Source: Chloroflexia bacterium SDU3-3
Lineage (GTDB): Bacteria; Chloroflexota; Chloroflexia; Chloroflexales; Roseiflexaceae
NCBI GenBank assembly: GCA_009268125.1
Contig: WBOU01000002.1
Coordinates: forward strand, 310,001 to 374,000
DNA: 64,000 nucleotides
Direction of reading: 5' to 3'
The position numbers were made by a program, and so were the translations under genes. Below are positions 1,731 to 48,214 of the stretch, piece after piece. Every line of letters starts with the position of its first letter. Position 1 is the stretch's first letter. The notes beneath the pieces were generated by a model that was not told the origin of the DNA, searched no databases, and worked only from the letters and a program-made list of their open reading frames with translations.

Positions 1731-4700
1731 ATGCCTGAACACGACGCTGCTGGCCGCTGGAAAGATAGATTCGGACACCTGGGCCGCCGCCAGATCGGCG
1801 GGCCGCTAGCCCTGGTGCTCTTCTTTGTGCTGGGCGTGCTGGCGGCCTTCCCCGCGCCGCTGCGCGCCCGCCCCGCGCTGGCCTCGATCAGCCCCGCCCC
1901 CGGCAGCACGATCTCCCCGCAGGCCGCGATCACGCTGCGCTTCACCCAGCCCATGGATCGGCAGTCGGTCGAGCGGGCGATCCTCATCTCGCCCGCCGCC
2001 GCGCTGCGTTTCCGCTGGGCCGAAGATGGCAGCGCGCTGACCATCGCGCCTGCCGAGCCGCTGGCCCCCGGCGCGCGCTACACGCTGAGCCTGGGCGCGC
2101 AGGCGCAGGGTCGGGGTGGCATGGCGCTGCTGCAGGGGGCGCAGGCCGTGTTCGCGATCGCCGCGGCGCAGGGCGTGCTGCTGGCCTCGCCAGCCCCCGG
2201 CGCGCGCGACACCACACCGGATGCGCCGATCAGCCTGCTCTTCAGCCGCCCGATGGTGTCCGAGGCGCAGGTGGGCGTGCCGCTGGCCTCGCCACCGCTG
2301 CAGCTTGACCCCGCCACCCTCGGCGAGGCGCTGTGGCTAGATGCCGAGACCCTGCTGTTTCGGCCCGCCGCGCCGCTGGCTGCGGGCACGACCTACACCG
2401 CCACGCTGGCTGCGGGCCTTCCCGATGCGGCGGGCGAGCGCGTGGCCACGCCCTACGTGTGGCGATTTAGCACCGCCGCCCCGCGTGTGCTGGCCGCCGC
2501 GCCGCCACTCGCCGCCCAGCGGGTGGCGCTGGGCGCGCCGCTCTCGCTCACACTGTCGCAGCCGGTGCCCTTCCCTAGCCCCAGCGCCACCCTGGTGATC
2601 AGCCCCTCGGTCGATGGCGCGTTCTCGCAGGCAGTCCTGCCCGATGCTACGCAGGTGATCACCTTCACCCCGGCGGGCGGCTGGATGCCCGATACCGCCT
2701 ACAGCGCCGCCCTGACCCTTGGGGACGCGGCGCAGCCCGCCCAGCGCTGGGAGTTTCGCACCGCGCCGAGGCCGCTGGTGGCTGGGCGCTACCCCGGCCA
2801 GGGCCAGCCGCTGGCGCTGGGCCAGCCGCTACGGGTGATCTTCAGCACGCCAGTGGACCAGCGGGTGCTGGAGCGCGCCCTGCAGATCTCCCCGCCGGTC
2901 GAGGGCCTGGCTATCACCGCCAGCGGCAACGAGGCGCGGATCTCGGCGGCCTTTGCGGCGAGCAGCGCCTACACGCTCACGCTTCCGGCAGATCTCACCG
3001 ATATGAACGGCGCGGCGCTGGGTGCGGCCTACGATCTGCGCTTCCAGACCGCCGAGGCGCCGCCATCGCTAGCGGCCCCAGCGGCGCAGGCCCATGTGCT
3101 GCGCATCCCGCCTGGCGCGCTTGGCCCACAGATCGCCAGCCGAAATCTGACGGCGCTCAGCGCCGCGCTGTATCGTCTGGATGCCGACTCGGCGGTGCGC
3201 ATGCTGGGTTTCGCCGAGGGCGACTGGCAGTCGTTTGACCCGGCGCGCTACGGGCTGCCGCTGGTGCGCGGCTGGGAGGCGCGGCTGCGCGATGCGGCGG
3301 GCGGGCAGATTCTGGCGCTGGGCGAGCGCGGGCCGGTGCCTGCCGGGATCTACTACCTGCGGCTGCGCGCCGTGGGCACGCTGCGGCTCGATCTGCTGCT
3401 GAGCGTGTCGGATGTGGATGCGCAGCTGCGGCAGAGCCGCACCGATGCGGCGGTGTGGGCCACGGTGGGCGGCGCCCCGTCGGAAGGGCTGCCTGTGTGG
3501 CTCTACCGCGAGGGCGCGCTGGTGGCCCAGGGCGCGACCGGCGGCGATGGCGTGTTCCGCGCCCCCGCCGATGGCTCGGCGCGCCTGGTGGCGCTGGTGG
3601 GCGATGGCGGCCTGGCGCTGGGCGAGGCGGTGCTGCCCAGCCAGGCGCTGCCGCTGACCGCCACGCTGCTGACCGATCGGCGCGAGTATGTGCCGGGCGA
3701 CCGCATCTACGTGGGCGGGTTTGTGCGCGGTAGCGGCCTGGGCGCTGCGCCGCCCGATGTGCTGAGCGGCACGCTCTCGCTGCGCAGCCGCGCTACCACC
3801 GAGCAGGTGGCCGCCACCGCCGCCCATGTGGGCGCGGGTGGTGTGATCAGCGCCAGCCTGGCGCTGCCGCCAGCGGCGCTGCCGGGGCGCTATATGCTGG
3901 CGCTGAGCCTGGGCAGTCAGCTGTTCACCGCCGATCTGGCGATTGCGGGTGACGCGCCGTCGCCCGATGTGGCGATCGAGCTGCCGCCTGCGGTGGCCTC
4001 GGGCCAGCCGCTGACGGCCACGCTGCGGGTGGAGGATGGCGGCCTGCCGCTGCCGCTGGCCCCGCTGACCTGGTCCCTGGCGCTGGGGCCCGACGATGCG
4101 CCGGGCCATGTGGTGGCGGCTGGGCAGGGGACGGCGGGCCTGGATGGCCGTCTAACCCTGGTGCTGTCGGACAGCGTGCGGGTTGATGTGCGCTCGCGCT
4201 ACACCCTGACCGCACGGCTTGCCAACACCACCGTGCCGCGCCCGCCTGCGCTGGCCGCCGGGGTGGCTGCGCCCGCCGCTGCGCAGATCGGCATCCGCCT
4301 CGATCGCCGGATCGTGCCCGCTGGCCAGCCCTTTGATGTGGCGCTGGCGCTGACCGGGGCGGCGGGCGAGCCGCTGCCAAACCGCGCGCTCTCGGTTGAG
4401 CTCTCGCAGCTGCCCGATGGCGAGCTTCCATCTGGGCGGCGCACCCGCATGCTGGCCAAGAGCATCCGCACCCGCGATGATGGGACCGCCAGCATTACGC
4501 TCTCCGGCGGGCGCGGCGGTCTGTACGAGATCGCCGTGACCGCCGCCGATCAGGCTGGCCGCCCCTCGGCGGCGCGCGCCCATGTCTGGCTTGCGGGTGA
4601 TGAGACGGCATGGCCAGCGGTGGCGGGCCAGCGGCTGCCGCTGCTGGCCGACCGCGCCAGCTACCGCGCGGGCGATGTGGCCCAGCTGCTCATCCCCGCC

Positions 4701-7716: not shown

Positions 7717-7732
7717 GCTCCCCACAGCACAT

Positions 7733-7774
7733 AAAAAAGCAGGCCGGTGGCTTATGCCACCGGCCTGCTTTTTT
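7733..7774. terminator. Bidirectional terminator
   Basis: A(6) + GCAGGCCGGTGGC (7739-7751), loop TTAT, GCCACCGGCCTGC (7756-7768) + T(6). A perfect 13-bp stem with A and T tracts serves both converging genes (6922 + and 7784 -). Confidence 0.95.
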
Positions 7775-9000: not shown

Positions 9001-9049
9001 CAGCTAGGGGGCGGGGGCAATGCTGCCCTCGCCCCCTGCCCGCTAGCTG
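9001..9049 (-). terminator. GC-rich hairpin after the NGGL-repeat gene
   Basis: CAGCTA (9001-9006) pairs with TAGCTG (9044-9049), and inside it a GGGGGCG/CGCCCCC stem forms. It lies just past the stop codon of the minus-strand gene at 9062. No T tract follows, so rho-independence is doubtful. Confidence 0.45.
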
Positions 9050-9061
9050 CTAGGTCATACG

Positions 9062-10183
9062 CTACTTGATGCGGTTCACATCATCCACCGTGTTGTCGCT
9101 GTAGAACAGGTAGACGCGGTCGCTGCTGCTGCGGTAGATCATCGTGTTGCCGTTGCGGAACGACTGCACGTGGCCCGCCTCGCCCACCTCGGTGGCCACG
9201 GCCCAGCCGAGCGTGTTGCGCACGCTGGGGATCTCGCTCCACAGCTTGCCAAAGCCGCGTGTCGGGGCCACCTTGCCTGTCGGCACCGGGTCGGTGATCG
9301 TGACCGGCTGGCCCTCGGTCCACCCATCGTAGTACGACTGCCAGACCGTGCGGTTGCGCCCGTTGTCGAAGAAGACCACGTAGATCGTGCCGCCGCTGGT
9401 GCTGGTCTGGCCGGGCACCCACACCATCTGGCCGCGCTCGAACTGCTGGGTGGCGATCTGCACGCCCACCATGGGCAGCGGGGTGGCGCAGGCGAAGGAC
9501 TGGCCGAAGGCCTGCGCGGTCTTCTGCAGCGAGGAGATCACATCGCCGCAGCCGCCGGTGTAGTAGGTGTTCAGCTCGCGGCCCAGCAGGCCCAGCAGCA
9601 CCTCGTACTGGGTTCCGGCGTTCTCGGGGTGGATCTCCATGCGCCGCCGCTCGAAGTACTGCACGGTGCCGCCCCAGGTCGGCAGCTCCTCGTGCATCTC
9701 TTTCGAGATCGGGTAGCCGAAGCGCTCGAGGCCGCCGTTCTTGCTCCAGTACTGCAGGAACTTGCCGCACAGGCTGTGGCCGGTCTCGGCGAAGTAGCGG
9801 CAGCCGGTGCCTACAGCGTTGGGGTCATCTTTGGGCAGGTTCTGCCACGAGCGCCCGGTGATGTCGAGGTAGGCAGCGCCCAGGCGGCCCGCCAGGATGC
9901 CCTGCCGGTCGGATGAGTGGTCTTCGAGGCGGTCGCGCTCGAACCACTGGGTCGGGCCGTTCCAGCCGTCGTTGTTCCACTCGGTCTGCAGCGGGGTGAT
10001 CGGGTAGCCGAACACCGAGAGGCCGCCATTTTTCTCCCAGTAGTCGAGGATCGAGCCGGTGATACAGTAGCCGGTCTCTTTGAAGCAGCGCTCGCGCGGG
10101 GCGGCGGCTGCGGGCGATGCGGTGGCCAAGCTGCTGAAGATCGCTGTGATCAGCATGGCGAGCGTGAAGAACTTGCGCAACAT
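9062..10183 (-). CDS. Secreted protein with two NGGL..FGYP repeats (function unknown)
   Basis: 373 aa from the ATG at 10183 (GGGAG eight bases upstream; longer in-frame starts add an implausible leader). A classical signal peptide, MLRKFFTLAMLITAIFSS...AAAA, is followed by two tandem repeats: CFKETGYCITGSILDYW..NGGL..FGYPIT..QWFERDRLE and CRYFAETGHSLCGKFLQYW..NGGL..FGYPIS..QYFERRRMEIHPEN. Paired cysteines could form disulfides outside the cell. The remaining 200 residues form a beta-rich module with GGTIYVVFFDNG. I know this repeat from many secreted Chloroflexota proteins, often next to peptidase or lectin domains, but no function is established. A 5'-UTR hairpin precedes it. Confidence 0.8.
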   Translation of the reverse strand: MLRKFFTLAMLITAIFSSLATASPAAAAPRERCFKETGYCITGSILDYWEKNGGLSVFGYPITPLQTEWNNDGWNGPTQWFERDRLEDHSSDRQGILAGRLGAAYLDITGRSWQNLPKDDPNAVGTGCRYFAETGHSLCGKFLQYWSKNGGLERFGYPISKEMHEELPTWGGTVQYFERRRMEIHPENAGTQYEVLLGLLGRELNTYYTGGCGDVISSLQKTAQAFGQSFACATPLPMVGVQIATQQFERGQMVWVPGQTSTSGGTIYVVFFDNGRNRTVWQSYYDGWTEGQPVTITDPVPTGKVAPTRGFGKLWSEIPSVRNTLGWAVATEVGEAGHVQSFRNGNTMIYRSSSDRVYLFYSDNTVDDVNRIK

Positions 10184-10230: not shown

Positions 10231-10272
10231 CTTGATTATGGTGCGAAGGGTTAGGTGCTTGCTGGGTGTCTG

Positions 10273-10463
10273 CCTTACTGCATGACATGCTCTTTTGGCT
10301 GACGAATCAAATAGCTGATGAGAAAGCCTTGCACCAATATCTGAGCTTTGTGTATTCCCATGTTTACACAAAATGATGGTGTAAGGCTCTATAATGCGAT
10401 AAATCGACCACCCATAAAACAACATGTCATGCAGTAAGGGGTGTCTGCCTAGTATAGAGCCTT
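10273..10463. repeat. Interleaved inverted repeats in a 407-bp intergenic region
   Basis: Arm a CCTTACTGCATGACATG (10273-10289) is the exact reverse complement of 10423-10439 (17 bp). Arm b AAGGCTCTATA (10383-10393) is the exact reverse complement of 10453-10463 (11 bp). The order a-b-a'-b' is the topology of a pseudoknot. GGGTGTCTGCC also occurs as a direct repeat beside both a arms. A TTACAC-N9-GTGTAA dyad (10364-10384) and a TATAAT (10390-10395) lie inside. The whole gap 10184-10590 is lower in GC than its surroundings and I see no gene in it. Confidence 0.7.
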
Positions 10464-10590: not shown

Positions 10591-10878
10591 CTACTGCTCG
10601 GCGGGGTCAATCAGATCGGGCGGCGCATCGGGGGCCTTGGGCTGGGTGGTATAGGCGAACTCGGCGTTTTCGGCCAGCATCGAGAGGATCTTCAGGGTCG
10701 ATCGGTGCGGCTGGTGCCGCCCGGTCTCCCATTCGCTGATCGTCTGCTGGCGCACCTCAAGCTCGTCGGCCATCTCGTGCTGGGTCATATTCAGATGGAT
10801 GCGCAGCGCGCGGATCTGGTCTTTATTCCACTCATATTTGATCATGTGGCGTTTGTTTTTGCGCGATTGGTCAGACAT
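10591..10878 (-). CDS. XRE-family helix-turn-helix regulator
   Basis: 95 aa. A basic N-terminus (SRKNKRHMIKYEW) precedes a canonical HTH_3 domain: QIRALRIHLNMTQHEMADEL..RQQTISEWETGRHQP, with the MTQ..MA.....QQTIS.WE.G signature of Cro/C1-type DNA binding. The tail of about 25 residues is proline- and aspartate-rich with no recognisable sensor domain. It has its own extended -10 promoter (TGCTACAAT) and a GGGGA Shine-Dalgarno. Transcription runs towards the NGGL-repeat gene across the 407-bp repeat region, so it may control that gene or itself; the TTACAC-N9-GTGTAA dyad between them is a possible operator. Confidence 0.85.
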   Translation of the reverse strand: MSDQSRKNKRHMIKYEWNKDQIRALRIHLNMTQHEMADELEVRQQTISEWETGRHQPHRSTLKILSMLAENAEFAYTTQPKAPDAPPDLIDPAEQ

Positions 10879-22297: not shown

Positions 22298-22345
22298 GAA
22301 CAAAAAGCAGAGCGGGGCCAGCTGGCCCCGCTCTGCTTTTTGTTC
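22298..22345. terminator. Bidirectional terminator
   Basis: GAACAAAAAGCAGAGCGGGGCCA (22298-22320) mirrors 22323-22345 almost end to end, with A5 and T5 tracts. It serves the kinase (+) and the DoxX gene (-). The perfect dyad of more than 20 bp is the longest terminator stem in the window. Confidence 0.95.
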
Positions 22346-48177: not shown

Positions 48178-48214
48178 GCAACGCCCCAGCCGGATGTTCC
48201 GGCTGGGGCGTTGC
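48178..48214. terminator. Long hairpin between converging genes
   Basis: GCAACGCCCCAGCCGG (48178-48193) is the exact complement of 48199-48214. The stem can extend by one A-T pair, leaving a TGT loop. T tracts are poor on the + side. Confidence 0.7.

Follow-up and report, generated by a model that had tools for sequence, protein, structure and literature searches.

Sequence comparisons make us highly confident that the paired repeats upstream of a secreted-protein gene in the window (the whole 64,000-nucleotide stretch of DNA that was analysed) belong to a MITE, on which an IS4-family transposase very likely acted in trans and which is probably now immobile in this genome. The initial annotation had left three guesses open for this region, a structured RNA, an operator for the neighbouring XRE protein and the remains of a small mobile element. 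One well-supported answer can now take their place: the third guess is borne out by copies in different flanks, by inverted ends, by a 10-bp duplication and by an insertion sequence (IS) with the same ends.

The element is short (165 bp), has imperfect terminal inverted repeats of 23-24 bp and carries no transposase. It occurs at two unrelated sites of its genome, on contig C2 (the window copy) and contig C13. The target-site duplication is an exact 10 bp at the window copy, matches at 9 of 10 positions in a relative from another family of the order (genome G034) and is absent at C13. The termini are common to an autonomous element, copies or ends of which are present in related genomes (G001, G006, G045, G047 and G049) and as relics in the window's own genome. 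Evidence against the MITE reading is that the C13 copy lacks a target duplication, that mobility rests on few insertions (two copies in the genome and one clear relative), that the interior is unlike the IS relics of its own genome past the first 15-16 nt, and that an empty site of the same locus was not found; in G062 and G061, where the secreted-protein and XRE genes remain neighbours, none is visible and the orthologous intergenic DNA is too diverged.

Repeats at the locus and anatomy of the element

The exact inverted repeats of 17 bp (10273-10289 / 10423-10439) and 11 bp (10383-10393 / 10453-10463) that the initial annotation reported are both in the sequence, as is its direct repeat GGGTGTCTGCCT at 10264-10275 and 10439-10450. 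The TTACAC-N9-GTGTAA dyad (10364-10384) and the TATAAT (10390-10395) are likewise present on reading, and the region gave no match to a sigma-70-type promoter. Two such exact inverted repeats within 200 bases had been thought unlikely to occur by chance. The window was resampled 20 times under an order-1 Markov model: no exact inverted repeat of at least 17 bp within 250 bp appeared, compared with four in the window itself, whereas about 10.7 of at least 11 bp are expected per 64 kb, which makes the 11-bp repeat unremarkable. Both the 17-bp inverted repeat and the direct repeat beside it are genuine and not random, while the 11-bp repeat is genuine but of a kind that chance supplies. The other three of the four long repeats (7731-7760, 22298-22329 and 48178-48198) have close-spaced arms and are hairpin-like, probably terminator-like hairpins.

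The interleaving of the two repeats as a-b-a'-b', described earlier as a pseudoknot topology, does not survive the delimitation of the element (Table 1). Because the b' arm lies outside the mobile unit and is absent beside the C13 copy, the pseudoknot reduces to one real repeat plus a coincidence, in which an arm inside the element matches a stretch of host DNA. In predicted folds the partner of the b arm is the GCCTTGCACCA arm near 10326, inside the element, and this pairing is nested, not interleaved.

Table 1. Features of the MITE locus, in positions of the window; C13 is another contig of the same genome.
Feature	Position	Strand	Basis and remarks
Secreted-protein gene	9062-10183	-	signal-peptide-like N-terminus; ORF list
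Target-site duplication, left copy, GGGTGTCTGC	10264-10273	+	exact 10-bp direct repeat abutting the element
MITE, non-autonomous, without transposase	10274-10438	.	second copy at C13:157618-157782; 40% G+C (67% in the window)
Left terminal inverted repeat, CTTACTGCATGACATGCTCTTTT	10274-10296	+	24-nt arms 92% complementary; first 15-16 nt common to IS ends of related genomes
Internal imperfect palindrome, left arm, GCCTTGCACCAATAT	10326-10340	+	pairs with right arm in DNA and RNA folds
Internal palindrome, right arm, with conserved block, AAAATGATGGTGTAAGGC	10370-10387	+	block kept in relatives
Right terminal inverted repeat, CTTACTGCATGACATGTTGTTTT (read on - strand)	10416-10438	-	pairs with left arm; IS-end comparison
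Target-site duplication, right copy, GGGTGTCTGC	10439-10448	+	exact; length as in the G034 relative (9/10) and the G001 IS (10/10)
b' arm of the 11-bp repeat	10453-10463	+	outside the element, past the right copy of the target duplication; missing from the C13 copy; chance match
XRE-type HTH regulator gene	10591-10878	-	PF01381 HTH_3, E 2e-11

The ends of the element form an exact inverted repeat, CTTACTGCATGACATG, which extends imperfectly to 23-24 nt, and the coding capacity of the unit is at most 55 codons. A different delimitation, a 167-bp element with an 8-bp duplication, was rejected; it requires the C13 copy to carry a substitution at its end, and it leaves more identities to chance than the 165-bp element with its 10-bp duplication does. 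A transcript crossing the element is predicted to fold back on itself as a long hairpin (- strand: about -64 kcal/mol). Since the element sits just upstream of the start codon of the secreted-protein gene, about 80-90 bp from the likely ATG (10183, - strand), an effect on that gene's leader or promoter is possible. The secreted protein itself has no Pfam match; its family is strongly expanded, with homologues in all 26 genomes of the bacterial family that were searched and 30 matches in the window's own genome.

Copies, relatives and a conserved internal block

The C13 copy is identical to the window copy at 161 of 165 positions (four substitutions), its flanks are unrelated, and the identity stops at the element ends. 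Directly next to it lies a truncated IS transposase gene, and a target duplication is missing, so that this site has evidently been rearranged. A search with the element DNA against 158 genomes of the class found no further copies beyond its own genome. Among 400 genomes from the phylum, a search with the degenerate 23-nt end picked out G034, where two such ends face each other at a distance of 162 bp. This relative has the same ends as the window MITE, and its flanks, GTAAAGGTGC and GTAAAGATGC, represent the 10-bp duplication with the single mismatch. Its interior has diverged except for AAAATGTTGGTGCAAGGC, which is placed where the window copy has AAAATGATGGTGTAAGGC, and the same internal block is carried by a relic in G063.

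The 18-nt block in the window (10370-10387, AAAATGRTGGTGYAAGGC) is conserved within otherwise diverged MITEs of different genomes. It matches the G034 MITE at 16 of 18 positions and, taken one base longer, the G063 relic at 17 of 19; for either match, none of 300 shuffles scored as high. One could propose that the block AAAATGNTGGTGYAAGGC, whose position is the same in MITEs from different bacterial families, has a function in this MITE lineage and is absent from the partner IS, and that it serves as a site for the transposase or a host factor or as a processed RNA hairpin; we regard this proposal as improbable.

Searches in other collections gave nothing that we take for a relative. The plasmid and phage collections gave no match to the element save for some 50 bp of a phage sequence with 77% identity (E 0.5), taken as chance, and so was the single IMG/VR match to the 16-bp end, in which the end alone matches, where a short ORF-like stretch begins. 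No paired-end pattern was found in GTDB contigs, where a degenerate 21-mer had one match, in Paenalcaligenes, a count about as chance predicts. On contig C39 of the window's genome (G000), a single end-like sequence, ATCACTGTATGACATGTTGTTTT (9037-9059), has two mismatches to the degenerate MITE end and lies close to where the contig stops within a tyrosine-recombinase-like gene, which is therefore partial; it has no good partner on its contig, and a similar site is present in G178:C40.

The partner insertion sequence

The MITE-like ends CTTAYTGCATGACAT also border IS copies in related genomes. In G001, a 1,321-bp IS with the ends CTCATAACATGACA and CTCATTGCATGACA is flanked by an exact 10-bp duplication, GGTCTCCATC, and a 1,321-bp copy in G006 has no visible target duplication. 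The IS ends in G006, G045, G047 and G049 have near-identical termini of 14-15 nt, and the G049 right end and the left end on contig C38 of G045 adjoin related transposase genes. One end recurs at several contig ends in both G045 and G047, as one would expect if a multi-copy IS had broken the assembly. On contig C94 of G047 (L094, G047:C94, about 375-480), an IS left end is apparently inserted in a CRISPR-like array (repeat CGAATCCCTGCAAGGGATTAAAAC, seen twice).

The IS4 family is defined by the YREK signature Y-(2)-R-(3)-E-(6)-K, and its members make target duplications of about 10 bp (7-13 across subgroups), with some subgroups having CT ends (De Palmenaer 2008, PMC2266710). The G001 transposase contains YACRWWQECTHKLLK, in which Y-AC-R-WWQ-E-CTHKLL-K corresponds to this signature, and the exact duplication in G001 has the length typical of the family. 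The protein also matches PF01609 (DDE_Tnp_1) in Pfam. Its best NCBIfam model is NF033591 IS4 (4.7e-31), with a score of 108 bits that falls below the curated cut-off of 152 of what is an equivalog model, narrower than the family definition.

The shared ends suggest that an IS4-group transposase, supplied in trans by an IS of the G001 kind, would have recognised the ends of the element and excised the unit. Staggered cut-and-paste insertion into GGGTGTCTGC, with a 10-bp stagger, would then have produced the direct repeat. That an insertion took place and duplicated its target is evident from the sequence itself.

In the window's own genome the IS is represented only by broken relics. The longest piece, on C13, consists of the left end and 274 codons of a truncated transposase, whose aligned motif reads YACRWWQACTHKL, with Ala where the IS4 motif has Glu; shorter pieces are present on C13 and C6. 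No intact transposase of the IS group was found in the assembly, a 51-contig draft, and for this reason the MITE is probably immobile in this genome at present. Two IS right-end relics on C3 (about 3300-3493 and 5650-5834 of L022, G000:C3:133000-142000) lie beside Rhs-like repeat genes that contain SVTTNEQG...EFDPWGNVRAG.

Alternative explanations and known elements

An alternative explanation is that the repeats, lying upstream of the secreted-protein gene, form a structured RNA of pseudoknot topology, either a riboswitch-like leader or a small RNA. Both strands of the element do fold with much greater stability than shuffled sequences (z about -7.5), for which the terminal repeats are mostly responsible, and one internal block is kept between species. 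However, for b to pair with b' an arm from beyond the element boundary is needed, which is missing next to the C13 copy; no Rfam family reaches the gathering threshold here (in the window, three tRNAs alone do so), and syntenic conservation within the family is lacking. In place of covariation between the arms, the terminal repeats of the G034 relative show mismatches and no compensatory pairs, although few sequences give this comparison little power. We therefore consider a structured RNA very improbable. Still less probable is a complex operator bound by the XRE protein. The inverted repeats do lie close to the HTH gene, but they have moved as part of the element and are found on C13 too, within an IS relic, and the XRE or secreted-protein loci of other genomes are without them: paired ends were absent from the syntenic loci of G062 and G061 and from the other homologous loci examined in the family.

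If the feature is a MITE, it could also owe its movement to a transposase from a different family whose termini are the same by coincidence. The assignment of the partner depends on about 15 nt of terminus and on the length of the duplication, and the interior of the MITE matches no IS found. Nevertheless, in several genomes these termini flank genes for IS4-like transposases, and the G034 relative has a subterminal CACTTGTTCT in common with the left ends of the G001 and G006 IS. This makes a different source of transposase improbable, if somewhat less so than the RNA or the operator, and leaves a MITE moved by an IS4-family transposase as the preferred reading.

This MITE of the IS4 group is a fresh instance of an ordinary kind of element, and it opens no new question of general weight. 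It does tie a MITE family of one bacterial order to its likely IS4-family partner, which is useful in annotating these genomes and guards against taking such repeats for operators or riboswitches. Literature searches that covered Chloroflexi MITEs and the IS4 elements of Herpetosiphon yielded no description of this MITE family.

Prokaryotic MITEs in general, such as the Correia elements of Neisseria, are short, non-coding and intergenic, with terminal inverted repeats and a target duplication, and fold end to end as a hairpin. The window element resembles them in all these respects, and differs from MITEs such as the Correia elements in its very low copy number (two), its termini and the length of its duplication. 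In contrast to an IS of the IS4 family, it has no transposase of its own. The partner IS is like members of that family in its YREK motif, CT ends, size of 1,321 bp, duplication of about 10 bp and single-frame DDE transposase, and unlike the IS4 references in that its transposase scores below the NCBIfam IS4 cut-offs. The subgroup nearest to it in size and CT ends is IS10, from which it differs in having a duplication of 10 bp, compared with the 9 bp listed for IS10.
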